Positions 8,407 through 35,512 of a stretch of 64,000 bases of DNA are shown here, in pieces. Source of the DNA: Myxococcaceae bacterium (GTDB lineage Bacteria > Myxococcota > Myxococcia > Myxococcales > Myxococcaceae); the NCBI GenBank assembly GCA_016793095.1, contig JAEUJQ010000045.1, positions 124,001 to 188,000 of the forward strand, read 5' to 3'. The first letter of the stretch is position 1. The number at the start of each line of letters is the position of its first letter. Below the pieces are notes generated by a model that saw only the letters and a program-made list of their open reading frames with translations, did not search any database and was not told the DNA's origin. A program made the translations under genes and the position numbers.

Positions 8407-10290
<1,884 letters not shown>

Positions 10291-10304
10291 CAGGCTCGAA
10301 CCGC

Positions 10305-10934
10305 ATGAAGTTCCTCGAGCGACGCGACGCGCAGATCATGGCAACGATGTTGCTATGGCTGAGTGTTGCCGGAGGCCAGATGGCGTGCGTGCTGCCCCAG
10401 GAGGACCAGATCATCACCGAGCTGCCCGGGGCGGCGAACCGGCCTCCGCGCATTCTGCCGGGCATCGCCGAGCCCCCGACGCGCGAGTACCGCGCGCAGC
10501 TCGGTGCCAACTGCAACCGGCCCGCGTTCTCGGTGCAGGTCGATGATCCCAACCTGACGGACACGATCCGGGCGAACTGGTTCATCGACCCGAACGAGCG
10601 CTACGTGCAGGATGGCGCGGGCAAGCCGCTGATCCGCGGGAACCCCGGGACACCGATTGGCGCAGGCTCGAGCGTGAGGCTGGTGCAGGCGCCGCCGACG
10701 TTCAACGCCGCCCTGCAGCTCTTCAACGACGGGCGGAAACACCGCGTCGAGGTGGTCGTGACGGACGGCGAGTTCATCGAGAGCGAGCGGCCCGATCCGC
10801 AAGGCGGCACGCAGGCGTTTCTCGACATCGTCCGCCCCGCCGTGCGCCTGCCGAGCGGCGAGGTGATCCCCGTCGCGGCCTATCGCGACGAGTACGTCTG
10901 GCTCGTGGAGGTCGACACGCTGCCATGTCCCTGA
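10305..10934 (+). CDS. Putative lipoprotein of unknown function
   Basis: 209 residues. A short hydrophobic stretch, MLLWLSVAGGQMAC, ends at a Cys that could be lipidated, although the -3 position is Gln and the lipobox is poor. The mature part is beta-rich, with a WFIDPNERYV segment and a strand pair RKHRVEVVVTDGEF near the middle. Two cysteines (CNRP and the C-terminal LPCP) could form a disulfide. The next gene starts 10 bp before this stop codon, so the pair is translationally coupled. No family is recognised; outer-membrane or periplasmic location is inferred. Confidence 0.65.
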   Translation: MKFLERRDAQIMATMLLWLSVAGGQMACVLPQEDQIITELPGAANRPPRILPGIAEPPTREYRAQLGANCNRPAFSVQVDDPNLTDTIRANWFIDPNERYVQDGAGKPLIRGNPGTPIGAGSSVRLVQAPPTFNAALQLFNDGRKHRVEVVVTDGEFIESERPDPQGGTQAFLDIVRPAVRLPSGEVIPVAAYRDEYVWLVEVDTLPCP

Positions 10935-12610
10935 TCCGCTCCCCCCGCCTGCTTCTCGCGCTGGCCCTCGCCGGCTGCGCGGGCGCACCGGCCAGGCCGC
11001 CTCCGTGCCTCACGGATCTCGACTGCGCAGAGGGGCTCGTCTGCTTCCCCGATGGCTGCGGAGATCCGACGCGGGGGCTCGCCGTCGAGGTCCTCGGTGG
11101 CTCGAACGTGGGGCTCTTCCCGCAGGACTTCGAGGTGCCACAGCTCGGCACCACGCAGGACTTCGAGATCAAGGGGCCGCTGTCGATCGTCGGCTCCTTC
11201 CAGCGCGAGCGCACGGCCTCCGTCGATCCGACCGAGCGGGACATCTACACCGACGAGGTGCTCGTCCGGGCGACCGGTGAGAGCCAGGTGCTGCCTGGCA
11301 TCGCGCGCAGCTACCAGCAGCGCTTCGCCATGACGGACCGCGGGACCTTCTCGATGAACGTGGGCCAGGGCAAGTACACCGTGAGCGCGTTCCCCACCAA
11401 CCTCGAGGTGCCCCCTCAGACGTTCCCCAACGTCGTGGTGAGCCCCGATGCAGGGGCGACCGTCAACTTCGCGTTCGCCTCGGTCGCCGGAGCCGTGACG
11501 CTGCCCGGCCGGTTGCTCAAGAAGAGAATCACCACCCCCACCCCCTCCGAGCTCTACATCACGCAGGCCGCGATGGATCTGCAGGCCGTCGACCCAGCGA
11601 CCGGTGAGGCCCTCTCGCAGCGCATCGAGACGTCGACTGGTCGGCCTGGCTCACGAGGAGACTTCATCCTCGTCGTCTCTCCGAAGGCGAAGACGCTCCC
11701 GCGCATCGAGCTGGTCGCCACGCCCCGCGAGGTGGGCTCTGGCGTTCCGAGCCGCCGCTTCTCGCTCAGCCCTCCTTTTCCTCCGGCCCTCACCCTCGAG
11801 CTCGGAGACTTCGGCGAGCCGGTGAAGGACGTGCCGGGTCAGGTGCTCGGCTCCGATGGCCAGCCCCTCGACGGCGCGACCGTCGTCATCGAGGGCACCG
11901 TTGGCGGCGGAGGCACGTTCCGCTCGAAGCTCGCGACCACCGACGCGACCGGCGCCTTCAAGGTCGATCTGCTCCCGCCCGACGACGCCTTCACCCTCAC
12001 GGTCTTCCCGAGGGCGGGGCTCCGCGCAGGGCTCACGAAGGTGAACGTGAAGCTGAAGAACTCGCCCGGGCAGCCGCCGGCCCTCGATCCACCCAGCGCG
12101 AAGTGCGTCGATCGCATTCCAGTGAGCGGTCGGGTGCTGCTGCCCGATGGCAGCCCCGCGGCCATGCTCGCTGTCCGCGCGGTCGAGACGAGCACCGGTG
12201 AGCGCCCGCTCCCGCTCGATGACGTGAACCTGCTCACCGACGTCGACGGCAAGTACTCCCTCTTCCTCGACCCCGGGAGCTGGCGCATCGAGTTCACGCC
12301 CCTCGGCGAGCTGCCCGCCACCAGCCGGCTCGTCACGGTGTCCGCCGCGGCGGCGACCATGGGCGGCATGCTGACCGGTCAGGTCTTCGCCCCGATCACC
12401 CTGCCCCGCGGCCGTCGGCTCACGGGCGTGGTGACCTCGAACCTGTCTGGGCGCGGTTCGGTGCCGCTGCCGAACGCGCAGGTGCGCTTCTTCCGCGTCA
12501 CCACCATCGAGGGCAAGCCGGCGTCGGTGCTGCTTGGGGCGGGCGTGACGAACGGCGTCGGCTCGTACACCGTCATCCTGCCCACTCGCGAGTCCGCCCG
12601 ACCGCAGTGA
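10925..12610 (+). CDS. Lipoprotein with carboxypeptidase-regulatory-like repeats
   Basis: 561 residues. The lipobox LALAGC is classical, followed by a Cys-rich knot (CLTDLDCAEGLVCFPDGC) of the type found in myxobacterial secreted proteins. The rest is beta-sheet, with at least three carboxypeptidase-regulatory-like or Cna-B-type units marked by VPGQVLGSDGQPLDGATVVIEG, IPVSGRVLLPDGSPAA and RLTGVVTSN, each followed by a TDxTGxFKVDLL or TDVDGKYSLFL turn. It is probably displayed on the outer membrane. It overlaps the preceding gene by 10 bp, which suggests joint function at the surface. Substrate unknown. Confidence 0.8.
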   Translation: MSLIRSPRLLLALALAGCAGAPARPPPCLTDLDCAEGLVCFPDGCGDPTRGLAVEVLGGSNVGLFPQDFEVPQLGTTQDFEIKGPLSIVGSFQRERTASVDPTERDIYTDEVLVRATGESQVLPGIARSYQQRFAMTDRGTFSMNVGQGKYTVSAFPTNLEVPPQTFPNVVVSPDAGATVNFAFASVAGAVTLPGRLLKKRITTPTPSELYITQAAMDLQAVDPATGEALSQRIETSTGRPGSRGDFILVVSPKAKTLPRIELVATPREVGSGVPSRRFSLSPPFPPALTLELGDFGEPVKDVPGQVLGSDGQPLDGATVVIEGTVGGGGTFRSKLATTDATGAFKVDLLPPDDAFTLTVFPRAGLRAGLTKVNVKLKNSPGQPPALDPPSAKCVDRIPVSGRVLLPDGSPAAMLAVRAVETSTGERPLPLDDVNLLTDVDGKYSLFLDPGSWRIEFTPLGELPATSRLVTVSAAAATMGGMLTGQVFAPITLPRGRRLTGVVTSNLSGRGSVPLPNAQVRFFRVTTIEGKPASVLLGAGVTNGVGSYTVILPTRESARPQ

Positions 12611-12701
12611 GCGCTCGCGCACCTCGTCGGACTTCGCGACGCTCCTGCGGAGGGCCGCGGCGTGGGCACGCTCGGCGGTCTCCGCACGGTAGTTGGAGCC
12701 T

Positions 12702-13184
12702 TCACGAGGCGGGCAAGGCGGCCAGGGCCGCGCGAAAGGCGTCGAGGGCGGGGCCGAGCTGCCCCGCTACCTGGGTCGCCTGCACGGTCGCGAGATCCAT
12801 CACCTGGTGCAGCCGCGTGAAGGCGATCTTGAGCTCGCTGCGGAGCGGCTCGTCGAGAGCACACTCCGCCTCGAGCGCCCGCATGCGCACCATCCACCCA
12901 TTGCGGAACGTCATCCACCGCTGATCGGCCTCCGCGGCCTTCCCGATCGAGCTCAGGTTGCGCCGCTCGGCCTCGAGCTCCTCGAACAACGCGGTGAGCC
13001 GACTGGCGCAGACGGCGGGCGTTTGAACGGGGACAGCCTCAGGGCGACCGGGCGACATCTCGAACACCGACTTCGTGACGCTGAAGATCACGAGGCTCGA
13101 GAACCCGACCGAGACGACGAGGTAGAGCGCCCACGCCGCGCCGCGGAAGGGTCTCAGCCTCGGATCAGGAGCGGGCGCCGTCAT
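12702..13184 (-). CDS. Single-pass membrane protein of unknown function, last gene of envelope operon
   Basis: 160 residues from the ATG at 13184, preceded by GGCGGTGAGGTG. One membrane helix (about residues 15-35, ALYLVVSVGFSSLVIF) is followed by an extracytoplasmic helical domain. The domain has three spaced cysteines (VCASRL, ECALDE) and ends in a long amphipathic Ala-rich helix. It starts 4 bp after the stop of the TPR protein upstream, so it is clearly in the same operon. No family is recognised. The frame extends further upstream, but that portion lies inside the neighbouring gene and was rejected. Confidence 0.7.
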   Translation of the reverse strand: MTAPAPDPRLRPFRGAAWALYLVVSVGFSSLVIFSVTKSVFEMSPGRPEAVPVQTPAVCASRLTALFEELEAERRNLSSIGKAAEADQRWMTFRNGWMVRMRALEAECALDEPLRSELKIAFTRLHQVMDLATVQATQVAGQLGPALDAFRAALAALPAS

Positions 13185-13188
13185 CACC

Positions 13189-14148
13189 TCACCGCCCCTG
13201 AGCAGGTGGTGTCGGGGGCGCCGCCGGGGCAGGCGCGGCAGGTGCGGTCGCTGGCGGGGCAGCGGCCGGGGTGGCCATGGACCGCTGCAGCCGGCCGATG
13301 AACTGGTTGCGGAACTCGCTCGCGGGGTACGTCTGCCACCCCTCCTTCGCGTACTCGATCGCCTTGTCCTTGTTGCCCACCACGTCATGCGACTGCACCA
13401 GCATGACGAGGGCGAAGTCGCGGGTGCGGGCCTTCTTGTCCCCCTCGACGAAGCGGGTGAGCGGCTTGATCGCCTCTTCGTATTTCCTCGACTGGAAGAG
13501 GGAGTTCCCGAGGAAGAACGAGGCGTCGAGCGCGTCTTCTTCGACCGGGTTCATCGCGAGGAAGCGGGTGAGCTGCTCGACCGCCTCGGGCCAGTCGCCG
13601 CGTCGGAACGCCGTCTTTCCGCGCTCGAGCACCGACGCGCCGACCTCCTTCCGCAGCAGCGTGGCGCGATCCTGCAGGGCCTGGCGGGTGAGCGGCGTGA
13701 GCTTCGAGGTGTCGAGCTTCGCGAGGGCCTCGACGCCCTTGAGCCGCTCCTCGCCCGCGAGCGTCGTCATCTGCCGGTAGACGTCGGCCGCCGCGCGCTC
13801 CGCCTTCTCGACCGCCTGCGCTTCGCTCTTCTGCTTGTCGAGCTGCGCGGTGAGCTCAGCGACCTGCTGCTCGAGCCGCTGCCGCTGCTCGTTCGCCGAG
13901 GACGCGCGCGCGCCAGAGACCGCGATCGCCCCGCCGACGCACACCGCGAGGAAGCCGAGGTACGCCGCGCCGGTGGCGAACCAGGTGCGTCGCTGGAAGT
14001 CGGCCTGCTGCGAGCTGACGACCTTGAGCTCGGCATGCAGGGACTTGAGCGCGTTGTCCGTCTTGATCGTCATGTTGCGCGCTTCGACGACCTCGCGGCG
14101 GATCTCCTCGAGCGGCTTGCTGGACTCTGAGCTTGGTTCCTGCGGCAT
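13189..14148 (-). CDS. Membrane-anchored coiled-coil/TPR protein
   Basis: 319 residues from the ATG at 14148. A cytoplasmic N-terminus with a short coiled coil (EEIRREVVEARNMTIKTD) leads to one membrane helix (about 55-77). A periplasmic coiled coil (RQRLEQQVAELTAQLDKQKSEAQAVEKAE) follows, then TPR-like repeats, for example RGDWPEAVEQLTRFLAMNP and SRKYEEAIKPLTRFVEGD, and an Ala/Pro-rich tail. The layout recalls YbgF/CpoB-type periplasmic scaffolds. It lies 43 bp downstream of an outer-membrane barrel gene and immediately upstream of another membrane protein, so the operon probably builds an envelope-spanning assembly. Confidence 0.82.
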   Translation of the reverse strand: MPQEPSSESSKPLEEIRREVVEARNMTIKTDNALKSLHAELKVVSSQQADFQRRTWFATGAAYLGFLAVCVGGAIAVSGARASSANEQRQRLEQQVAELTAQLDKQKSEAQAVEKAERAAADVYRQMTTLAGEERLKGVEALAKLDTSKLTPLTRQALQDRATLLRKEVGASVLERGKTAFRRGDWPEAVEQLTRFLAMNPVEEDALDASFFLGNSLFQSRKYEEAIKPLTRFVEGDKKARTRDFALVMLVQSHDVVGNKDKAIEYAKEGWQTYPASEFRNQFIGRLQRSMATPAAAPPATAPAAPAPAAPPTPPAQGR

Positions 14149-14191
14149 GGCGCTTCCCTGTACCACGTTGGGCGCGGAGCGCGCCGGGACT

Positions 14192-14869
14192 TCAGAAGCT
14201 CGACGGGCGACCGAAGCCCGGAACGTCGAGATCGCGCTTCGGGGTGGGCGGGAAGAAGATCGAGACGCCCGCCGAGGCGAACAGCCCACCCACGTTGCGG
14301 CCGGCGATGTCGGCCACGTACGCCCGCCCGATCAGCCAGCGCACGTCGACGAACAAGCCGAAGCGATCCGTCAGCCGCCAGGCGGCGCCTCCGTTCACCG
14401 AGAACCCCTGGAGGATGCGCTCGGGACCTACGGCGCTGGGCGAGGTGACGATCACCAGCACCGGGCCAGTCTGTGCCCCGACGTACGGGACGAGGCCCTT
14501 GACGGGGAAGTCATAGCGGGTGAACCGGACCCCGACGAGCGCGCCGTACGAGACCGACGAGAACGGGAGCCAGCCTTCGAGCTGAAACGACTCGAAGCCA
14601 GCGAAGAGATCGATCGCCAGCTCGAGCCACTCGAAGGCGCCGTACCCGAAGCTGGCTGCGCCCTGAAACCCGAGCGGGGCCGTGACGAACTCCTGGGCCT
14701 GCGTGTTCGGGCGGCCCGCCTCGCGCGCGCGCGCGTTGAAGTGGTCGTTCGGGGTCCACCGCAGCCCGCCGCCGAAGCTCATGCGTCCCACGCCGTCCGT
14801 CGGGGTGTCGGCGAGGGCGGTCTGCGCGCTCATGGCGATCGCGAGGACGCCCAGCGTCACTGCGCGCAT
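14192..14869 (-). CDS. Outer-membrane beta-barrel protein
   Basis: 225 residues with a signal peptide (MRAVTLGVLAIAMSAQTALA) and then alternating aromatic beta strands (LGFQGAASFGYGAFEWLELAIDLFAG, VSYGALVGVRFTRYDF, FGLFVDVRWLIGR, FASAGVSIFFPP). That pattern fits the small myxobacterial outer-membrane barrel families, though the C-terminus is not the classical terminal Phe of BAM substrates because a short tail ending PSSF follows. The ATG at 14869 has GGAAGGTG upstream, and its A is shared with the stop codon of the preceding gene (TGATG). It may form the outer-membrane end of the assembly encoded by this operon. Confidence 0.8.
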   Translation of the reverse strand: MRAVTLGVLAIAMSAQTALADTPTDGVGRMSFGGGLRWTPNDHFNARAREAGRPNTQAQEFVTAPLGFQGAASFGYGAFEWLELAIDLFAGFESFQLEGWLPFSSVSYGALVGVRFTRYDFPVKGLVPYVGAQTGPVLVIVTSPSAVGPERILQGFSVNGGAAWRLTDRFGLFVDVRWLIGRAYVADIAGRNVGGLFASAGVSIFFPPTPKRDLDVPGFGRPSSF

Positions 14870-15249
14870 CACCACACCTTCCATCCCTCGGGGCGGTGGC
14901 CCACGCGGGGAGGTACAGGAGGGACTGGCGTCACGGGGCGGCCCGACGCGCCGACCGCGTCTTCGCGTGGCACGACGGTGAAGGGGCGTTGCCCGCCGGC
15001 GCGCGGCTCGGGAGCCGGTGGGACCTCCTTCACGCCGGCCCGCTCCTCGAGCAGCTTCACGTAGAGCTTGAGCTCGGCGAGGGCCTGCTCCTTCTCCATC
15101 AGCCTGCGGTACAGCTCCACGCGCCGCTCCTTCTCGTCCATCAGCTCGCCGTGGAGTTGCATGAGCGACGCCATCGCCTTCTCGGCGTATGAGGCAGGGA
15201 CTGGGAGCGGTGACGGGGCGGCGAGCATGAGCGGGTCGAGCGGGTTCAT
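14869..15249 (-). CDS. Short coiled-coil protein, envelope operon
   Basis: 126 residues from the ATG at 15249. After a Pro-rich start (MNPLDPLMLAAPSPLPVPAS) comes a continuous helical stretch (about 22-72) with heptad-like charge spacing (LHGELMDEKERRVELYRRLMEKEQALAELKLYVKLLEE). It ends in a Pro/Gly-rich tail closing with GWKVW. No signal peptide. Both ends overlap neighbours: ATGA with the 51-residue gene upstream and TGATG with the barrel gene downstream. This tight coupling suggests equimolar production. No family is recognised. Confidence 0.72.
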   Translation of the reverse strand: MNPLDPLMLAAPSPLPVPASYAEKAMASLMQLHGELMDEKERRVELYRRLMEKEQALAELKLYVKLLEERAGVKEVPPAPEPRAGGQRPFTVVPREDAVGASGRPVTPVPPVPPRVGHRPEGWKVW

Positions 15250-15401: not shown

Positions 15402-15743
15402 CTGCGCGCTCCTTCCTCGCTACAGGTGTGCAGCGCACCGTAGCAGTCGCGATCGAGCCGGCAATTTTTCGACCTGCGAGGACTCCGCGCTGGCGAAGCG
15501 GCTCGCGGGCGGCCTCATGCCCGTCGGGCCAGGGCGAGCGCGCCAGGACTCCGCGCTGGCGAAGCGGCTCGCGGCCTCATGCCCGTCGGGCCAGGGCGAG
15601 CGCGCCAGGACTCCGCGCTGGCGAAGCGGCTCGCGGGCGGCCTCATGCCCGTCGGGCCAGGGCGAGCGCGCCAGGACTCCGCGCTGGCGAAGCGGCTCGC
15701 GGGCGGCCTCATGCCCGTCGGGGCAGGGCGAGCGCGCCAGGAC
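15402..15743. other. Intergenic region of 342 bp between mutL and the envelope operon
   Basis: The left third (15402-15480) is a conventional leader for the leftward operon and contains the only AT-rich patch nearby (aatttttcg, about 15463-15471). The rest is the tandem repeat array described separately. I see no tRNA, no conserved reading frame across the repeats and no convincing U-tract terminator for mutL, which reads leftward into this region. Confidence 0.7.
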
Positions 15744-15749
15744 TCAGCG
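15481..15749. repeat. Minisatellite: four tandem ~66-bp units abutting the mutL 3' end
   Basis: Units run 15481-15546 (66 bp), 15547-15608 (62 bp, lacking 4 bp after GCGGCTCGC), 15609-15674 (66 bp) and 15675-15740 (66 bp, one visible C-to-G change near its middle). A partial fifth copy begins at 15741 (GACTCAGCG) and contains the mutL stop codon. Each unit starts GACTCCGCGCTGGCGAAGCG and ends GGGCGAGCGCGCCAG. Inverted repeats are present: CGCCAG/CTGGCG across each unit junction and GCCCGTCGGGC inside each unit. The 62-bp unit breaks any reading frame through the array, so it is not coding. Confidence 0.95.
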
Positions 15750-19430: not shown

Positions 19431-21409
19431 GAGGGCTCGTCAGCCGGCCGCCCGGCCTCCTCTCGCGCGATCTCGCCGCCCTGTCGGCCTTCGGCGCCGT
19501 CGCGCTCTCGGGCGTGCTGCCGCTGCCGGTGCTGATCATCTTCCCGATCGTCTTCGTGCTCTCGTTGCTGGGAGTGAGGCCGCTCGCCGGGCGGCGCACC
19601 GTGTCGGTGATCGTGCTGTTGGTGATCGGCGTCGGCCTCTTCGCCGCGGTCGCGCTGTCCACCCTCGATCTCGTCATCGCGGCCGTGTCCTTCGCGACGC
19701 TGGTGACGTCGCACCGCATGCTCGCCGAACCCACCCCTCAGGCCTCGCGCCAGGTGTTGTTGTCGGGCCTGCTCCTCGTCAGCGGCGGTGCGGCCCTCAC
19801 GGGTGAGGCGCTCTTCGCGCTGCTCCTGACGACGTTCTTCCTCACGGCGTCCTGGTCGCTCGCCTGGCTCGTGCTCGCGCGCGACGAGGCGGTCCTCGCG
19901 GGTGGCGAGCGGCAGGCCGTCTCGCGCCAGCTCGTCGTCGGCAGCCTGACCACGCTGCTCCTCGGCGTCGGGTTCTTCGTCGTCTTCCCGCGGCTGTCGT
20001 GGAACCTCGCCAACCGGCGCGGCTCGCCGGGCCTGGGTGGCGTCACCGGCATGTCGGACACGGTGAAGCTCGGCGGAGGCGGCGACATCAAGACGAGCGT
20101 TCGGGTGGCGTTTCGCGCAGAGCTCACCCCCAACCCCGGCGTCGACGAGCTGCGGGCGTACTGGGTCGGGCGCCACTTCGACTCCTTCGACGGCTCGGAG
20201 TGGACTTCGTCGCAGCGGCCCCTGACGCCCGCCGGCACCGTCGTGCTGCATCGGGCGTCCCGGCGGAGCCTCGGCCAACTGAGCCAGGACATCGAGCTGA
20301 CGCCCGCCTACGGCAGTCGCACCCTCGTCGCCATCGACACCCCGACGTTCTTCGCGAGGGGGCGCGGCGTGTCGGTGGCGGGCACCCAGCCGATGCCGCT
20401 CGTCCACGTGCCGGGCGATCAGGTGTTCGGCGCCAACGAGGCCAACACGACGACCTACATGGCGACCAGCGACGGCGCGGCTGGCGTCGACCAGACGGAG
20501 CCGTCGCCTGCGGCGTCCGGTCTCCCTGCTGGACTCGACCCGCGGGTGGCGCCTCTGGCTGACGAGCTGGCCCGGGGCGCGACCACTCCACTGGCCATCG
20601 CGCGGCAGCTCGAGCAGGAGCTGAAGCGGCGGTACGACTACACCCTCGATCTGCCGGGCGACGTCGCCGACCCGCTCGCCGACTTCCTGTTCGTTCGCCG
20701 CGCCGGCCACTGCGAGGACTTCGCCACCGCGTTGTCCCTCATGCTCCGGCTCAAGGGCATTCCCAGCCGCCTCACGACAGGCTTCTTCGGCGGCGAACGG
20801 GCCGGGGCCCGCTACGTCGTGCGCGCAGGCGACGCGCATGCCTGGGCCGAGGCGTACGTCGATGGCGCCTGGGTGCGTCTCGACGCGACCCCTGACCAGG
20901 GGCGCGCGGCCTCGGGCGGGAGGTGGGCCGCGCTCGTCGCGCAGAGCTGGGAGCAGCTCGAGGACTGGTGGCGGTCGCGCGTCGTCGACTACTCGTTCCA
21001 GGATCAGCTCTCGTTCGTGCGCTCGCTGGCGAGACCTCCCGCGATCGCGCAGACCCAAAGCTCGACGCTGAGCCTGCCCGACGGCAGCGCACCGCGAGCC
21101 GTGCTGGTCGCCACCGGCCTCGCGATGCTGGGCGTCGGCGTGTGGCTCGCCAGCCGTCGTCGCCAGGCGTCGCACCCGGCCGCCGACTTCCTCGCCGAGA
21201 TCGAGCGGCGGCTCGAAGCCAGGGGCCTCGACGTGCGCTCCCAGCCGCTCGAGGAGCTCTCGCACCAGCTCTCCCTCGCGCAGCACCCGCTGTCCCAGCC
21301 CCTCGCCCAGGCCTGCCGCCGCTACCTCGAGGCCCGCTTCGCCGGACGGCCCTTGACGCCAGCCGAGCGCTCGACCCTGCTGGCGGGGCTCGAAACGCCA
21401 CGCCGCTGA
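19427..21409 (+). CDS. TgpA-like transglutaminase membrane protein
   Basis: 660 residues from a GTG that overlaps the DUF58 stop codon. The first 200 residues hold about five to six membrane helices (DUF3488-type). An extracytoplasmic transglutaminase core follows, with catalytic Cys near 428 in RAGHCEDFATALSLMLR, His near 470 in GDAHAWAEAYVDG and Asp near 485 in DATPD. A last helix near 555-575 and a cytoplasmic tail match the DUF4129-type ending. Relatives such as TgpA act on periplasmic proteins or peptides and can be essential. The MoxR-DUF58 partners upstream support such a role. Confidence 0.94.
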   Translation: MRGLVSRPPGLLSRDLAALSAFGAVALSGVLPLPVLIIFPIVFVLSLLGVRPLAGRRTVSVIVLLVIGVGLFAAVALSTLDLVIAAVSFATLVTSHRMLAEPTPQASRQVLLSGLLLVSGGAALTGEALFALLLTTFFLTASWSLAWLVLARDEAVLAGGERQAVSRQLVVGSLTTLLLGVGFFVVFPRLSWNLANRRGSPGLGGVTGMSDTVKLGGGGDIKTSVRVAFRAELTPNPGVDELRAYWVGRHFDSFDGSEWTSSQRPLTPAGTVVLHRASRRSLGQLSQDIELTPAYGSRTLVAIDTPTFFARGRGVSVAGTQPMPLVHVPGDQVFGANEANTTTYMATSDGAAGVDQTEPSPAASGLPAGLDPRVAPLADELARGATTPLAIARQLEQELKRRYDYTLDLPGDVADPLADFLFVRRAGHCEDFATALSLMLRLKGIPSRLTTGFFGGERAGARYVVRAGDAHAWAEAYVDGAWVRLDATPDQGRAASGGRWAALVAQSWEQLEDWWRSRVVDYSFQDQLSFVRSLARPPAIAQTQSSTLSLPDGSAPRAVLVATGLAMLGVGVWLASRRRQASHPAADFLAEIERRLEARGLDVRSQPLEELSHQLSLAQHPLSQPLAQACRRYLEARFAGRPLTPAERSTLLAGLETPRR

Positions 21410-28324: not shown

Positions 28325-29248
28325 TCAGCGACGAGGTCGGCGCAGCGCGGCCAGCGCCTCCTCGAGATCGTCGGGCAGCGGCGACGTCACCGAGACCCTC
28401 TTCTTCTTCGACGGGTGAGGGAACGAGAGCTGGTGGGCGTGCAGCGCGAGCCGTGGCGCTGCGGTGAGCTTCGACGAGGTTCTGGAGCCGTACAGCACGT
28501 CGGCGAGCAGCGGGAACCCAGCCTCGGAGAAGTGAACGCGGATCTGGTGGGTCCGCCCCGTCTCGAGCCGCACCTCGACGAGCGCCGCGTCTGCGAGGCG
28601 TTCGATCACCCGGTAGTGCGTCACCGCGCGCCGGCCCCGGCTGATCCGCGTGGTGAAGCGCTGGCGGTGGACGGGGTGACGGCCGTGCAGGGTGTCGAAG
28701 GTGCCCGCATCGGGCGGACGACCGGCCACGATCGCGAGGTAGATCTTCTCGACGGTGCGGCTGGCGAAGGCTTCCTGGAGCGTGACGAGGGCGCGCTCGT
28801 GCTTCGCGATCACCATCACGCCCGAGGTGTCCTTGTCGAGACGGTGCACGATGCCGGGCCGCAGCTCTCCGCCAACCCCGCCGAGATCTTCGACGTGATG
28901 GAGCAGCGCGTTCACGAGCGTGCCGGTCTGGTGGCCGGCGCCAGGGTGCACGACCATGCCTGCGGACTTGTCCACCACGAGCACGTCGCGGTCTTCGAAG
29001 AGCACCGTGAGCGGCAGCGCCTCGGCGGCAGGCGTCGCGGCGACGGGCTGGGGGATCTCGAGCACGATCTGCTCCGTGCCGAGGACGCGGTGCGATGACC
29101 GAACGGGTTTGCCGGCGACCGAGACGTGGCCATCGTCGATCAGCGCCTGAATGCGAGACCGGCTGAGCTCGGGCAGTCGGCGCGCAAGGAAGCGATCGTA
29201 GCGCTCACCGCGGTCAGCCTCGGTCGCCTCGATCAGCGTCCGCGTCAC
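28325..29248 (-). CDS. rluD: RluD-family 23S rRNA pseudouridine synthase
   Basis: 307 residues. An S4 RNA-binding domain (about 15-65, LSRSRIQALIDDGHVSVAGK) precedes the RluA/RluD catalytic domain, with VVDKSAGMVVHPG and the catalytic Asp near 138 in GIVHRLDKDTSGVMVIAK. The later ETGRTHQIRVHF and LHAHQLSF motifs are intact. The S4 domain and length fit RluD (23S rRNA 1911/1915/1917) best, but RluC-like specificity cannot be excluded. It overlaps the small upstream gene by 4 bp (ATGA). Confidence 0.94.
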   Translation of the reverse strand: MTRTLIEATEADRGERYDRFLARRLPELSRSRIQALIDDGHVSVAGKPVRSSHRVLGTEQIVLEIPQPVAATPAAEALPLTVLFEDRDVLVVDKSAGMVVHPGAGHQTGTLVNALLHHVEDLGGVGGELRPGIVHRLDKDTSGVMVIAKHERALVTLQEAFASRTVEKIYLAIVAGRPPDAGTFDTLHGRHPVHRQRFTTRISRGRRAVTHYRVIERLADAALVEVRLETGRTHQIRVHFSEAGFPLLADVLYGSRTSSKLTAAPRLALHAHQLSFPHPSKKKRVSVTSPLPDDLEEALAALRRPRR

Positions 29249-29508
29249 CAGATCTTCGACTTCACGTGCCCCTTGGGCTTGATGACGACGTCGACGATCG
29301 CCCGGTCGAAGAAGTTCGTGCGCGTGAAGATCTCGGAGCTGACACGGGTCTTGAACAGCTCCCGCCCCTCTTCGATCTCGTCCTTCAGAACGTCGAACAG
29401 CGTGTCCTGCTCGATGCCCTGGACGATCTTCGCCTCGTTGTAGAGGGAGATGTCCGAGGCGATCGCCCGGGCCAGCCGCATCGCCTTCATCCGTTCTTCG
29501 TCAGTCAT
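29245..29508 (-). CDS. Small conserved helical protein coupled to rluD
   Basis: 87 residues from the ATG at 29508 (MTDEERMKAMRLARAIASDI). It is predicted helical and acidic in the middle (LKDEIEEGRELFKTRV), ending in a beta-rich, basic segment (IVDVVIKPKGHVKSKIW). It has no signal peptide or cysteine. Similar-looking small proteins occur in Deltaproteobacteria and relatives, but I know no assigned function. It overlaps the start of rluD by 4 bp and follows the J-like/HTH gene by 32 bp, so all are probably in one leftward transcript. Confidence 0.75.
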   Translation of the reverse strand: MTDEERMKAMRLARAIASDISLYNEAKIVQGIEQDTLFDVLKDEIEEGRELFKTRVSSEIFTRTNFFDRAIVDVVIKPKGHVKSKIW

Positions 29509-29540: not shown

Positions 29541-31646
29541 TCAACCTTTCGCCTTCGCCTGGTGTGCCTCGACGAAGGTCAAGTAGCTCTTCGACACGCG
29601 CAGACCGTCGAGTCCCAGCTCGCGCGCCACGCTCATCAGCATGCCGCGCAGGTACACCATCGCCGGGAGCTGGTCGTAGCGATCCCCCTCGAGGTTCTCG
29701 AGGTGCCGGACACCGATTCGGGTGCGCTCCGAGAGCTGGAGCAGCGACACCCCTCGCGCCATCCGCACCTGGCGCAGGAGATCGCCGTTGAACTCGACGC
29801 CCGCGGGAACCTCATAGGGTCGCGGCCGCTCGGGAGGGCGGTACTCCCGCGGGGTGAAGGGACGCGCAGGGACGATGGCTGACTCGCCGTCGAGCGCCTC
29901 GGACGGCCCATCCAGGGGCAGAGAGGGCCGCTCCCCGACCCGCGCCTTCTCGTCGATGGGCGAGTCCTCCCCGACGGGCGCCTTCTCTCCGACGGGCGCC
30001 TTCTCTCCGACGGGCGCCTTCTCTCCGACGGACGCCTTCTCTCCGACCGACGCCTTCTCTCCGACGGACGCCTTCTCTCCGACGGACGCCTTCTCTTCGG
30101 CGGACGCCTTCTCTTCGGCGGACGCCTTCTCCTCTTCGGCGGACGCCTTCTCTTCGGCGGACGCCTTCTCTTCGGCGGACGCCTTCTCTTCGGCGGACGC
30201 CTTCTCTTCGACGGACGCTTTCTCTTCGACCGACGCCTTCTCTTCGACCGACGCCTTCGCCTCGACCGACGCCTTCCCTTCGACCGACGCCTTCTCTTCG
30301 ACCGAGGCCTTCTCTTCGGCGGACGCCGTCTCTTCGGCGGACGCCTTCTCTTCGACCGACGCCTTCTCTTCGACCGACGCCTTCGCCTCGACCGACGCCT
30401 TCTCTTCGACCGACGCCTTCTCTTCGACCGACCCCTTCTCTTCGGCGGACGCCTTCTCTTCGACGGACGCCTTCTCTTCGACGGACGCCTTCTCTTCGGC
30501 GGACGCCTTCTTCTCCTCGACGGACGCCTTCTTCTCCTCGACGGACGCCTTCTCTTTGACGGGCGCCTTCGCCTCGACCGACGCCTTCTCTTCGGCGGAC
30601 GCCTTCTTCTCCTCGACGGACGCCTTCTCTTTGACGGGCGCCTTCGCCTCGACCGATGCCTTCTCTTCGACAGAGGCCTTCTCTTCGACAGACGCCTTCT
30701 CTTCGACAGACGCCTTCTCTTCGACAGACGCCTTCTCTTCGACAGACGCCTTCTCTTCGACAGACGCCTTCTCTTCGACCGACCCCTTCTCTCCGACGGG
30801 CGCGTTCTCCTCGACGGACCCCTTCGCCTCGACCGACCCCTTCTCTCCGACGAGCGCGTTCTCCTCGACGGACCCCTTCGTCTCGACCGACGCCTTCTCT
30901 TCGACAGACGCCTTCTCTTCGACCGACCCCTTCTCTCCGACGGGCGCGTTCTCCTCGACGGACCCCTTCGTCTCGACCGACGCCTTCTCTTCGACAGACG
31001 CCTTCTCTCCGACCGACGCCTTCTCTCCGACCGACGCCTTCTCTCCGACCGACGCCTTCTCTTCGATCGCCTCGATCGGCTTCCGCTCTGCTGGCCGCGC
31101 CTGTCTGACCGTGCCTGACTGATCCGCGACGATCATCGTCGCGTTCGCGGCGCGCGCATCAGGCGGTGCGGAGCCCTCCTCGGTTCGCAGGGGCTTCGCC
31201 TCGGCCGCAACGGACTCCGCACGCGAAGGTCGCGGCGCGCTGGTCTGGGCGACCGGGGAACCAGTGGTGACGGTGTAGCTGTAGACCGCAGCCGCAGGGG
31301 ACGCTGAAGCGGTCGTCACGAACGCCCACGAGCCTGCCCACGACGTCGGAGCCGCCGCCGGCGCGCTGTTGGGGGCTGGCGCCTTCCTGGGCAGCTCACG
31401 TGGCGGCAGCCCGATGGAGACGTCATACGAGGCGCGCCGCTGCTCATCGAGCAGCGTGTCCACGGCCTCCTTGAGTCGTGCCCGAAGCGCACGGGCCCGC
31501 GTCTCGTCGATCAACCCGTAGAGCGCGACCTGATCCTCGGCATACAGCCGCAAGAGCCGCTCGTAGGCCGAGCGGATGTCACCGTCGGAAGCGCCGACCG
31601 ACACCTCCAGCAGCTCATAGAAGGTCTGGGCCTGGAACGACTTCAC
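29541..31646 (-). CDS. J-like / ~60-fold hexapeptide repeat / RodZ-type HTH protein
   Basis: 701 residues in three parts. Residues about 8-78 resemble a J-domain (FYELLEVSVGASDGDIRSAYERL ... LLDEQRRASYD), but the HPD motif is replaced by AED, so DnaK stimulation is unlikely. After a Pro/Ala/Ser-rich linker, residues about 194-575 are roughly sixty copies of a six-residue repeat (EEKASV, with GEKASV, EAKAPV, EEKASA and some 7-mers), highly charged and likely disordered or helical. The C-terminus (about 615-690) is a RodZ/HTH_25 domain: LLRQVRMARGVSLLQLSERT, then LPAMVYLRGMLMSVARELGLDG. It overlaps the MinD-type gene upstream by 4 bp. It is not predicted to span the membrane. Confidence 0.88.
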   Translation of the reverse strand: MKSFQAQTFYELLEVSVGASDGDIRSAYERLLRLYAEDQVALYGLIDETRARALRARLKEAVDTLLDEQRRASYDVSIGLPPRELPRKAPAPNSAPAAAPTSWAGSWAFVTTASASPAAAVYSYTVTTGSPVAQTSAPRPSRAESVAAEAKPLRTEEGSAPPDARAANATMIVADQSGTVRQARPAERKPIEAIEEKASVGEKASVGEKASVGEKASVEEKASVETKGSVEENAPVGEKGSVEEKASVEEKASVETKGSVEENALVGEKGSVEAKGSVEENAPVGEKGSVEEKASVEEKASVEEKASVEEKASVEEKASVEEKASVEEKASVEAKAPVKEKASVEEKKASAEEKASVEAKAPVKEKASVEEKKASVEEKKASAEEKASVEEKASVEEKASAEEKGSVEEKASVEEKASVEAKASVEEKASVEEKASAEETASAEEKASVEEKASVEGKASVEAKASVEEKASVEEKASVEEKASAEEKASAEEKASAEEKASAEEEKASAEEKASAEEKASVGEKASVGEKASVGEKASVGEKAPVGEKAPVGEKAPVGEDSPIDEKARVGERPSLPLDGPSEALDGESAIVPARPFTPREYRPPERPRPYEVPAGVEFNGDLLRQVRMARGVSLLQLSERTRIGVRHLENLEGDRYDQLPAMVYLRGMLMSVARELGLDGLRVSKSYLTFVEAHQAKAKG
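29935..31075. repeat. 18-bp tandem repeat tract inside the J-like/HTH gene
   Basis: About sixty imperfect 18-bp units, seen on the + strand as variants of GACGCCTTCTCTTCGGCG, plus a few 21-bp units with an extra codon. Blocks of identical units (for example seven EEKASV-type copies in a row and three GEKAPV copies near the left end) show recent expansion. The frame is preserved throughout, so it is under coding constraint. Copy number is likely variable between strains and prone to assembly error. Confidence 0.95.
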
Positions 31647-32620
31647 CGCTCCAATGCAATCAGGTTTTCGGCCACTCGCAACAAGCCCGTGGCGGCCGGG
31701 CTCTGCGGGAACGCGCGCATGAGTGATTGCCGCGCCCGAACCGCTTGCCAGACGGCATCGTCGTGGGCGACCGCGCCGAGGTACCCCAGCTCGAGCCCGA
31801 AGAACTTCTTCCAGGCGCTCACTACCGTCGGGCCGATGTCGTGGTCACCGCGCGTGCGCGCCTGGTTGACCAGCACCCAGGGTGAGAAGCCTGCCAGGGC
31901 GTGCTCGAGCCTCGCCGCCGCCTCGACGTTCGTCTTGCGAAGCTCCACGACCACGTCCATCGGCGTCATGGCTGCGTGGCCGTCGCGGGGAGCGAGGGCG
32001 CGAGCGACCAGGGACGCAAAGTCGTCGTCCGGCGCGAGCGTCTGCAGGCGGCGAAAGAAGGCGGCCTTGATGAACCGGTACGCGTTCTCGATCGAGGTCG
32101 GCTCGGGCAACATCACCACCAGGCCCGTGTCCGCGATCAGGAAGAAGTCGAGCACGTTGAAGCTGGTCCCGGCGCCGAGGTCGAGCAGCACGTAGTCCAC
32201 GTCGAGCGTCTTCAGGTGCCGCAGGAGCTTCGCCTTCTGCGAGTGCTTCGGGTTCGCCGCGTCCAGATCGTCCATCGCGCCCGAGATCAGCTCGAGCCGA
32301 TCGATGCCCGTCGCCACCACGACGTCTTCGAGGCGCGCGGCGCGCTTCTCGACGAAGTCAGAGAGGGTCACCCGAGGCTGGGGCACGCCGAGGCAGGTGT
32401 GCAGGTTGGCCCCGCCGAGATCCGCGTCGACGAGCACGACCTTCGAGCCGCGCTCGGCCAGCGCGATCCCGAGGTTCGCTGACACCAGCGACTTGCCGAT
32501 GCCGCCCTTCCCGCCCCCGATCGCGACCACGCGTCGCGCACGGCCCCGCCGCGCGGCTGTTCGCTTGCCACCGGGGAACTCGATGATCGCGCCCTGATCG
32601 AGGGCTTCGCTCTCTGCCAT
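31643..32620 (-). CDS. MinD/FlhG-type P-loop ATPase
   Basis: 325 residues. The deviant Walker A GGKGGIGKS with the signature Lys, switch I DADLGGANLH and switch II LLDLGAGTS assign it to the MinD/ParA family; DADLGGANLHTCLG is typical of the FlhG (MotR/YlxH) branch. There is no flagellar gene nearby. It overlaps the J-like/HTH gene by 4 bp, so that protein is the likely partner whose position or assembly it controls. The C-terminal amphipathic helix typical of MinD is not obvious (ending LLRVAENLIALER could serve). Upstream is an HNH gene 10 bp away. Confidence 0.92.
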   Translation of the reverse strand: MAESEALDQGAIIEFPGGKRTAARRGRARRVVAIGGGKGGIGKSLVSANLGIALAERGSKVVLVDADLGGANLHTCLGVPQPRVTLSDFVEKRAARLEDVVVATGIDRLELISGAMDDLDAANPKHSQKAKLLRHLKTLDVDYVLLDLGAGTSFNVLDFFLIADTGLVVMLPEPTSIENAYRFIKAAFFRRLQTLAPDDDFASLVARALAPRDGHAAMTPMDVVVELRKTNVEAAARLEHALAGFSPWVLVNQARTRGDHDIGPTVVSAWKKFFGLELGYLGAVAHDDAVWQAVRARQSLMRAFPQSPAATGLLRVAENLIALER

Positions 32621-32630
32621 GGGCTCCGAC

Positions 32631-33230
32631 TCAGTCGTCCTTCAGCTCGACGTTCCAATACGACGCGTCGGCCACGTTGAGGAAGGGCAACCATTCACGG
32701 TACGTCTGGGGCTTCGCCGCGTTGCGGAAGAGGGGGGTCCACTTCGGGCGCACCGGCTCTCGCAGCAGCGAAATCCCGGCCTGCGCGGGCGTTCGGCCGC
32801 CCTTCCTCAGGTTGCACGTGATGCACGAGCAGACGACGTTCTCCCAGCAGGTACGCCCCCCCTGCGAGCGCGGCACGACGTGATCCAGGTTGAGGTCGGC
32901 GCGCCGGAGCTGTCGGCCGCAGTACTGGCAGGTGTCGTTGTCGCGCGCGTAGATGTTGATGCGGCTGAAGCGCACCCTCGTTCGCGGCAGCTTCTCGAAC
33001 GCCGTCAGCACCAGCACCCGCGGCACCCGGATCGTGCGGTTCACCGAGTGGATCCGATCGTGATCGGCCGCTGCGGCCAGCTGCTGCCAATCGGCGAAGT
33101 CGTACTGGCGGTACTGCTCATCGAGCGCCCGCGCGACGCCCTGGTACAAGAGCGAGATGGCGCGCTTCACGCTCGTCACGTGAATCGGCTGGAAGTTGCG
33201 GTTCAGGACGAGGACTGCGGTGTTCAGCAT
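32631..33230 (-). CDS. HNH endonuclease (paralogue 1, beside selA)
   Basis: 199 residues from the ATG at 33230. The N-terminal half, VLVLNRNFQPIHVTSVKRAISLL, is the fold typical of the 'VLNRxYQP' HNH family. The nuclease core has CQYCG, the HNH-type LNLDHVVPRSQGG, then TCWENVV and a second zinc pair CITC ahead of NLRKGGRTP. Intact metal and catalytic residues suggest an active nuclease of unknown target. It overlaps selA by 7 bp at its start, and a paralogue lies on the other side of selA. Such genes are common as single chromosomal copies with unknown role. Confidence 0.9.
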   Translation of the reverse strand: MLNTAVLVLNRNFQPIHVTSVKRAISLLYQGVARALDEQYRQYDFADWQQLAAAADHDRIHSVNRTIRVPRVLVLTAFEKLPRTRVRFSRINIYARDNDTCQYCGRQLRRADLNLDHVVPRSQGGRTCWENVVCSCITCNLRKGGRTPAQAGISLLREPVRPKWTPLFRNAAKPQTYREWLPFLNVADASYWNVELKDD

Positions 33231-34615
33231 GGGTCGCCTCGAATGACGTCGGCGACCCGGGTCGCGACGGCGTGGCAATCGGCCTCGGTGAGACAGCGGA
33301 CGTCGAACCACAGCTCGTCGTCGCAGATGCGCGCGACGACGGCGGGATCTCCAGCTCGCAGGGCGTCGTGCAGGGCGACCGCCGGGCCCTTCACGGCGAC
33401 GGCAAACGAAGGGGGCGAGGCCAACGGCATCGAGCCTCCGCCGACCCTCGAGGTCGTCGCGACCACCCGGCTCGTCACGTTGCCGGCGGCGAGCGCGCGA
33501 GCCAGGCGCTGGGCCCTCGCCTCGAGCTCGGGGAGCGGAGTGCTGAGCAGCGCCCGCGCGGGGATCTCGAAGTCAGCTCCGTCGCGGTAGTGCTCGAGCG
33601 TCGCCTCGAGGGCAGCGACGGTGAGCTTGTCGATGCGCAGCGCCCGGTTGAGCGGGTGCTTCGCGAGGAGCGCGATGAGAGCGCGGCGCCCCACGACGAT
33701 GCCGGCCTGCGGTCCGCCCAGCAGCTTGTCGCCCGAGAAGGCCACCACGTCGGCCCCGGCGTCGATGACCGAGCGCACCGTCGGCTCCGAGGTCAGCCCT
33801 TCGCCGTGCAGCGGCACGAGCGCTCCGCTGCCGAGATCCTCGAACAGCGGCACGCCCTTCGCCCGCCCCAGTGACGCCAGCTCGGCCGTCGTCGCCTCCT
33901 CGGTGAAGCCCACCACCGCGAAGTTCGAGCGGTGCACCTTGAGCAGGAGGCCGGTCTCTGGCGACAGCGCGGCCTCGTAGTCGGCCACGCGGGTGCGATT
34001 GGTCGTGCCCACCTCGACCAGCTGGCAGCCAGACTGGCGCATCACGTCGGGCACGCGGAACCCTCCGCCGATCTCCACCAGCTCGCCCCGCGAGACGATC
34101 ACGGCCCTGCCCTGCGCCAGGGCTCCCAGCGTCAGCAGCGTCGCAGCCGCGCAGTTGTTCACGACCAGCGCGTCCTCGGCGCCAGTCAGCGCGCACAGCA
34201 GCTCGACGACGTGCGCGTAGCGGCTGCCGCGCTCGCCCTCGTCGAGATCGAGCTCGAGGTTGCAGTAGCCCCGCGCGATGGAGGCGATGCGCTCGACGGC
34301 CCGAGACGACAACGGCGCCCGTCCCAGGTTCGTGTGGAGCACCACCCCGGTCGCGTTGAGCACCGGGCGCAGGTGGGGGCGGGTCAGCACCTCGATCTGC
34401 CGTGACACCAGCACCGGATCGAAGGCGAGCTCGGCGCCCGCCAGGATCTGCTCCCTCACCGCGCCCACGGCCCGGCGGCACGCCTCGACCAGCAGCGGGC
34501 GCGCGACAGTCCTCCCCAGCGCAGCGATCTGTTCGTGCACCAGCAGCTCGTCGATCGAGGGCAGCGCCCGGAGTAACGCCTGCCGACGGCCGGTCTCGGT
34601 GGGAGTCGCACCCAT
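33224..34615 (-). CDS. selA: L-seryl-tRNA(Sec) selenium transferase
   Basis: 463 residues, the usual SelA length. It converts Ser-tRNA(Sec) to Sec-tRNA(Sec) with selenophosphate and PLP. Diagnostic motifs are LNATGVVLHTNLGRAPLS, GYCNLELDLDEGERGSRY, ALVVNNCAAATLL and the PLP-binding Lys near 292 in FSGDKLLGGPQAGIVVG. The ATG at 34615 is chosen because the SelA N-terminus begins there (ALLRALPSIDELL follows shortly). No selB, selD or tRNA(Sec) gene is seen in the window. A TACGAT box lies 12 bp upstream, and a strong hairpin lies about 50 bp upstream. Confidence 0.96.
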   Translation of the reverse strand: MGATPTETGRRQALLRALPSIDELLVHEQIAALGRTVARPLLVEACRRAVGAVREQILAGAELAFDPVLVSRQIEVLTRPHLRPVLNATGVVLHTNLGRAPLSSRAVERIASIARGYCNLELDLDEGERGSRYAHVVELLCALTGAEDALVVNNCAAATLLTLGALAQGRAVIVSRGELVEIGGGFRVPDVMRQSGCQLVEVGTTNRTRVADYEAALSPETGLLLKVHRSNFAVVGFTEEATTAELASLGRAKGVPLFEDLGSGALVPLHGEGLTSEPTVRSVIDAGADVVAFSGDKLLGGPQAGIVVGRRALIALLAKHPLNRALRIDKLTVAALEATLEHYRDGADFEIPARALLSTPLPELEARAQRLARALAAGNVTSRVVATTSRVGGGSMPLASPPSFAVAVKGPAVALHDALRAGDPAVVARICDDELWFDVRCLTEADCHAVATRVADVIRGDPC

Positions 34616-34627
34616 GTCGGTGCCACC

Positions 34628-34633
34628 ATCGTA
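34628..34633 (-). promoter_or_regulatory. Possible -10 box for selA
   Basis: On the minus strand the hexamer TACGAT ends 12 bp before the ATG at 34615. The leader between them (GGTGGCACCGAC) includes a short GGTGG. No clear -35. Confidence 0.35.
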
Positions 34634-34664
34634 CCCTGAAACAGCTCCAGCGCCGATCGAACGG

Positions 34665-34692
34665 CCCCTCTGGAAGGTGACTCCCAGAGGGG
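34665..34692. other. Strong hairpin upstream of selA
   Basis: CCCCTCTGG (34665-34673) and CCAGAGGGG (34684-34692) form a 9-bp perfect stem with a 10-nt loop. It lies just upstream of the possible selA -10 box, so it could be an operator, or the 3' end of the transcript from the HNH gene at 34881. No U-tract. It does not fit a tRNA(Sec) fold. Confidence 0.55.
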
Positions 34693-34785
34693 ACCAGCTC
34701 GATCGACGCGGAACCCACGAGAACCGGCGTCTACGCCGTCTGACGGGGGCGCCAGGGCCCTGTGAAGCGTGGACCAGCACCCAGC

Positions 34786-34880: not shown

Positions 34881-35426
34881 TCAATCTTCCTCGAGGCTGC
34901 CGTGCCAGTAGGTCAGGTCGCGCAGCCACGTCTGCCACGAGGCGGGCATGCCCTTGTGGAAGGCGAAGGTGAGACGGAGCGTGTCCGGCAGCTTCGCCGG
35001 CTTCACCGGCCGCACCTTCAGCGGCATGCCTGCCTGCTCCGGCGTCCTGCCACCCTTCTTCTGGTTGCAGGGCACGCAGGCGATCACGATGTTCTCCCAG
35101 TTCGTCGCGCCGCCGCGCGAGCGGGGCGTCACGTGATCGTAGGTCGCGTCGGCCCGGAGGACCGGCCGCTGGCAGTACTGGCAACGGCCGTGGTCACGCG
35201 CGTACACGTTCTCGCGGCTGAACCGGATGACCGGCTTGCGGCGCGCGAGCAGGCGCAGGAAGCGAACCACGGACGGGACCTTGAACTCGAAGCTCACGCT
35301 GCGAATCGTCTGGTCCTCGTACGCCTCGACGAGCTCGACCTTGCCGAGGAACAGCAGCGTGATGGCGCGCTGCCAGGGAATGCGGGCGACCGGCTGGTAC
35401 GAGCGGTTCAGAACGAGAGTCTCCAT
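34881..35426 (-). CDS. HNH endonuclease (paralogue 2)
   Basis: 181 residues from the ATG at 35426, which follows an excellent AAAGGAGG ribosome site. The layout is the same as the gene at 32631: TLVLNRSYQPVARIPWQRAITLL at the start, zinc pair CQYCQ, HNH core TYDHVTPRSRGGATNWENIV, zinc pair CVPC and NQKKGGRTPEQAG. Catalytic His/Asn residues are retained. The two are clearly paralogous, sharing motifs all along, but differ in the first half, which may set specificity. Target unknown. Confidence 0.91.
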   Translation of the reverse strand: METLVLNRSYQPVARIPWQRAITLLFLGKVELVEAYEDQTIRSVSFEFKVPSVVRFLRLLARRKPVIRFSRENVYARDHGRCQYCQRPVLRADATYDHVTPRSRGGATNWENIVIACVPCNQKKGGRTPEQAGMPLKVRPVKPAKLPDTLRLTFAFHKGMPASWQTWLRDLTYWHGSLEED

Positions 35427-35512
35427 GGCTTGCCTCCTTTCGCGGACCCACGCTGCGGGGCCGATGCGCGAATGGACGGCGGCGCTCACGATTCCTGAAC
35501 GAAGCCGAACGC

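Follow-up and report, generated by a model that had tools for sequence, protein, structure and literature searches.

The window analysed here, i.e. the whole stretch of 64,000 nucleotides from the Myxococcaceae bacterium, carries on its reverse strand two overlapping genes forming a conserved and old cognate pair, one for a MinD/ParA-superfamily ATPase and the other for a protein, J-HTH, with a J-like domain at its N-terminus and an HTH_25 domain at its C-terminus. Since the pair is conserved across myxobacteria and usually found directly upstream of romX, it may be a component of the cell-polarity machinery that has so far escaped characterisation. The reading preferred here, a tentative one with a probability of about 0.4, is that J-HTH would act as a flexible tether between the ParA/MinD-type ATPase and the polarity apparatus of RomX and MglA.

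Gene cluster and its conservation

The first gene of the cluster (31643..32620, reverse strand) encodes the ATPase of 325 amino acids, with a FleN/FlhG-like fold, Pfam matches to ParA/AAA_31/CbiA and the deviant Walker A motif KGGIGKS at 32489..32509. It overlaps by 4 bp (31643–31646) the second gene (29541..31646, reverse strand), which starts with GTG and encodes the 701 residues of J-HTH; both this overlap and the FlhG-like character of the ATPase had been recognised correctly in an earlier note on this DNA. The third gene, romX (29245..29508, reverse strand), begins 32 bp past the J-HTH stop and itself shares 4 bp with the fourth (28325..29248, reverse strand), coding for an RluD/RluA-type pseudouridine synthase (Pfam PseudoU_synth_2 and S4), which is probably a linked gene outside the function of the cluster. 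The order ATPase, J-HTH, romX and rluD is shared by Myxococcus xanthus (L099), Corallococcus, Archangium-type genomes and Anaeromyxobacter. The neighbours of the ATPase gene in the window are selA, HNH, romX and rluD, selA (33224–34780) lying just upstream of the cluster between two HNH-endonuclease genes (32631–33311 and 34881–35489), an arrangement that recurs in relatives.

Concerning the third gene, its product of 87 amino acids has no match in Pfam; its AlphaFold model (pLDDT 94.8), however, is matched by Foldseek to PDB 8zna, the RomX of M. xanthus, with 76% identity and a TM-score of 0.89, and phmmer finds the same entry with an E-value of 1.7e-40, so that, judged from sequence and model, it is a romX orthologue. 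The gene romX helps determine the leading end of the Myxococcus cell, and RomX and RomR together act as exchange factor on MglA, the polarity GTPase (PMC10329633, PMC9481161). The earlier note had proposed a generic positioning system; the cognate pair on which it was built stands, but the identity of the following gene was overlooked, and with romX in that place the likely biology shifts towards cell polarity.

Of the 155 Myxococcota genomes surveyed, 131 have the HTH domain and 119 the ATPase, with orthologues called at E <= 1e-40; all but one of the latter (118/119) have the HTH protein as well. In 107 of these 118 genomes the HTH protein is encoded next after the ATPase, in the same orientation and no more than 4 kb away; of the 11 non-adjacent cases, several are interrupted by contig ends. 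A cognate pair of J-like/HTH_25 and MinD-type proteins in Myxococcota had been anticipated, together with the possibility that most homologues would lack the ATPase as a neighbour; the 107 adjacent pairs bear out the former and speak against the latter. Outside Myxococcota, the ATPase and J-HTH genes occur side by side in three Aminicenantes MAGs and in bin47, where the genes next to the pair differ from those described here and give no functional clue.

The solved structures closest to the ATPase are those of FleN/FlhG (E-value 2e-27), MinD being also among the best PDB matches, and the deviant Walker A motif GGKGGxGK[ST] is present in 63 of 65 distinct orthologues. Past the core, the protein has no obvious C-terminal tail that could form an amphipathic membrane-targeting helix; a simple hydrophobic-moment calculation gave no discrimination on this point. 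Its N-terminus reads MAESEALDQGAIIEFPGG, as against MDQAESLRQLM in the flagellar FlhG of the same genome; a motif of the DQAxxLR type is absent from it and neither flhF nor other flagellar genes adjoin its gene. The host contig C39 carries FlhF (over its cut-off), followed by FlhG with the MDQAESLR start, near FlhA, FlhB and FliA. The identification of the window ATPase with the flagellar FlhG is therefore rejected: the FlhG beside FlhF on contig C39 is a different gene, and the earlier view that a flagellar role is not supported holds.

It should be pointed out that the 8474–15000 region of that contig (L148) contains FliA, FlhG, FlhF, FlhA, FlhB and FliR-type genes in a genome of the Myxococcaceae type, a group that is usually described as non-flagellated. 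The same contig encodes, at 20430–21314 (L063, 5431–6390), a second MinD-type paralogue, 36% identical, whose gene immediately precedes that of a small FliJ/YscO-like protein; the genome G023 (L065) shows a similar arrangement.

Two heads and a variable linker

All three elements ascribed to J-HTH in the earlier note—a J-domain fold without HPD, about sixty repeats of the EEKASV type and a C-terminal HTH_25 domain—were confirmed. The J-like head (residues 1–79; 31410..31646, reverse strand) scores 29.8 bits against Pfam DnaJ (cut-off 27.8), resembles J-domains in the PDB and is matched by Foldseek to the J-domains of CbpA/DnaJ; its AF2 model has a pLDDT mostly of 80–97, falling to 72 at residues 41–50. 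The HPD motif, required for Hsp70 stimulation, is found in none of the 68 distinct J-like domains, the commonest replacements being SPD (20) and APD (9), whereas the window protein has AED. A further J domain in the window, that of a response regulator–DUF4388–DnaJ–TPR protein (57749–60061, forward strand), keeps HPD, in contrast to the J-like head.

The HTH head (residues 623–681; 29604..29780, reverse strand) reaches 66 bits against Pfam HTH_25 (cut-off 24.6), is modelled by AF2 with a pLDDT of about 95 and has detectable similarity to PDB entries 3fym, 4gqm and 2wus; its fold also resembles SinR and DdrO, RodZ-type HTH domains being the better sequence matches. There is no membrane helix in J-HTH, the maximum 19-residue hydropathy over the whole protein being 0.92. 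The possibility that J-HTH is the RodZ of the cell was rejected on this ground, and the host contig C49 encodes a different HTH_25 protein that does have a hydrophobic segment.

The two heads are joined by a linker containing a tandem array (29943..31066, reverse strand) with an 18-bp unit, 61.8 copies and 87% matches by TRF, parsed into 60 units (56 of six and four of seven amino acids) at residues 195–563. A set of 68 distinct J-HTH linkers measure 10–534 amino acids (median 231) and differ greatly in sequence, that of the window being the longest and the sole one with a strong period of six; most of the others are rich in Pro/Ala, a same-genus genome (L039) has an array of the AAAEKA type, and those of the three Aminicenantes MAGs and bin47 count only 10–20 residues. 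The AF2 model of the window linker has no secondary structure and a pLDDT mostly of 40–50, low-depth modelling of repeats being in itself weak evidence. Since the linkers of relatives are unrelated and that of the window is modelled as disordered, the array is a local expansion within a free, fast-changing spacer; compared with the sequences of its relatives, it is specific to the present genome and does not characterise the J-HTH family. The earlier idea of a variable-length spacer is thus supported as far as length and predicted disorder are concerned, while conservation does not extend to the hexapeptide array itself.

The array also yields matches to the hexapeptide acyltransferases LpxD/LpxA/NeuD that look strong, although those to LpxD/LpxA stay below the curated cut-offs. 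They are best read as artefacts of periodicity, and a left-handed beta-helix acyltransferase was rejected, because the AF2 model shows no strands, with its pLDDT of about 40–50, and the linkers of relatives are unrelated. A 422-aa open frame with DAFSST repeats on the opposite strand (29854–31122, forward) results from the 18-bp array and is not evidence of a gene. Elsewhere in the window there is a 66-bp tandem repeat (15479–15749; 4.2 copies, 95% matches). Where no ATPase gene adjoins that of J-HTH, the linker is mostly short, at 35–51 amino acids (L134, L136, L137, L143 and L145), the exceptions being L138 (165) and L116 (109).

Possible role in cell polarity and rival explanations

The J-like domain is present in all 68 loci with an upstream ATPase versus nine of 17 without it; the loss in the remaining eight, spread over several families, gives a Fisher p of 5e-7 that ignores phylogeny, the loci being related to one another. 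Of the nine that retain J without an adjacent ATPase, one belongs to a genome in which the ATPase sits elsewhere. The HTH domain adjoins romX in 94 of 97 genomes of the host's order and in 14 of 31 outside it, as well as in 16 of 17 genomes without an adjacent ATPase. Partial distance correlations from a mirror-tree analysis of 44 loci, likewise related to one another, are 0.51 for MinD–J and 0.56 for RomX–HTH, against 0.23 for both MinD–HTH and RomX–J; they could reflect linkage, since the J end adjoins the ATPase gene and the HTH end adjoins romX. The pattern of J loss, the adjacency and the rate correlations nevertheless all point to an association of J with the ATPase and of HTH with the romX side. 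It is unlikely that RomX was the ancestral cargo of the pair, because full-length RomX is absent from the three Aminicenantes genomes possessing the pair and adjacency to romX is limited to 14/31 outside the order.

From these genomic associations we infer both a J–ATPase contact and a contact of HTH with RomX, MglA or MreB, with positioning as the output. The ATPase would probably cycle between an ATP-bound dimer and an ADP-bound monomer, and J-HTH would consist of two small folded heads joined by a long disordered string. Of these heads, the degenerate J-like one probably touches the ATPase and the HTH_25 one probably the cargo side, the cargo in Myxococcia being RomX with the MglA polarity apparatus, reached either directly or via MreB, itself a target of MglA-GTP. 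In this way, the pair may recruit, place or time the polarity apparatus, whether at the pole or along the length of the cell; the string—here rebuilt from an 18-bp tandem repeat—would set reach but not specificity. A bolder form of the proposal, which must be considered rather doubtful, envisages an unrecognised layer of polarity in which the MinD-type ATPase holds RomX through J head, string and HTH_25, so that an ATP switch would place or time the GTP switch of MglA; were it true, the string could change freely in both length and sequence, runaway tandem duplication included.

The main rival to the tether is a DnaK adaptor: the J-like head would have retained its binding to Hsp70 and would deliver DnaK to the ATPase, or to the complex bound by HTH, for remodelling or folding. 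The ATPase would then be a client or partner and not what J targets directly. The RomX of M. xanthus is taken here to be MXAN_3350. Its neighbour MXAN_3349 stands three tags before the RluA-family gene MXAN_3352 (PMC3546991) and, since this fits the order J-HTH, romX and rluD seen here, it is very probably the J-HTH orthologue, as deduced from locus-tag order rather than from a sequence check. What makes the explanation a serious one is that MXAN_3349, a J-domain protein, co-purified with DnaK1 and DnaK2, as confirmed by split luciferase (PMC11019930). It remains unlikely, as HPD is missing from all 68 distinct J-like domains, and DnaK binding alone does not predict that J should always be found beside the ATPase and often be lost without it. 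A literature search returned nothing on MXAN_3348, MXAN_3350 and MXAN_3351, although MXAN_3349 and MXAN_3352 do appear, and nothing combining RomX with MinD or J domains.

The docking of the HTH_25 head on MreB filaments in the manner of RodZ takes up a proposal of the earlier note; in this explanation, the ATPase would place or release the link, with the effect falling on cell shape or gliding. The head does resemble the MreB-binding RodZ structures 2wus and 4gqm, and a canonical MreB is encoded on contig C65 of the host genome; moreover, MglA-GTP binds MreB in M. xanthus (PMC8144978) and RodZ touches the Min system via MinJ in B. subtilis (PMC5778138). Of the two aromatics critical for the RodZ–MreB contact (F60/Y64 in E. 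coli, Y66/F70 in the chlamydial protein; PMC4047632), the first is kept in 61 of 61 sequences (59 Y and 2 F), in line with that proposal, whereas I or M stands at the second position in 52 and an aromatic in only nine, Met being found here. With J-HTH devoid of a membrane helix, its domain order the reverse of that in RodZ and its HTH linked to romX rather than mreB, this explanation, too, is improbable. Quite remote is a regulatory function, in which the HTH head would bind DNA and be switched on and off by the FleN-type ATPase, as FleN switches FleQ: the nearest solved ATPases are indeed FleN, and SinR and DdrO are further matches of the HTH fold, yet the better sequence matches are to RodZ-type domains, which are protein-binding modules, and a long disordered string with a J-like head would be unusual for a regulator.

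If the tether reading is taken as a guide, the pair deserves attention for two reasons. How RomR/RomX and the proteins acting with it come to be placed asymmetrically at the poles is explained only in part (PMC10329633), and a pair immediately upstream of romX, conserved phylum-wide, present in M. xanthus and containing an ATPase of a class that positions cellular cargos, is a candidate for that asymmetry. In addition, the linkers that join this one pair of domains, 10 to 534 residues long, offer a natural series with which to ask what a disordered tether must keep.

Comparison with known systems

With FlhG/FleN, the ATPases that act with FlhF in setting flagellar number, the window ATPase shares the MinD-superfamily fold and the closest solved structures; it differs in lacking both DQAxxLR and the FlhF/flagellar neighbourhood. 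The HTH_25 domain of J-HTH is shared with RodZ, but it is placed C-terminally, behind a J-like head, in a protein that has no membrane helix and in which one of the two MreB-contact aromatics is missing. On these features, the pair belongs neither with FlhG nor with RodZ. Concerning the RomR/RomX–MglA module, the shared element is romX, the third gene of the cluster, whereas neither the ATPase nor J-HTH figures among the six described polarity proteins—MglA, MglB, MglC, RomR, RomX and RomY (PMC10329633, PMC11580455). Several ParA/MinD positioning systems have a cognate adaptor, such as McdA–McdB, PomZ–PomX/PomY and others (PMC10241942, PMC7993993, PMC6328274), and an adaptor made of J-like and HTH_25 domains was found described for none of them in the literature. 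It is nevertheless these systems that the pair resembles in architecture, an ATPase with a dedicated, co-encoded partner.
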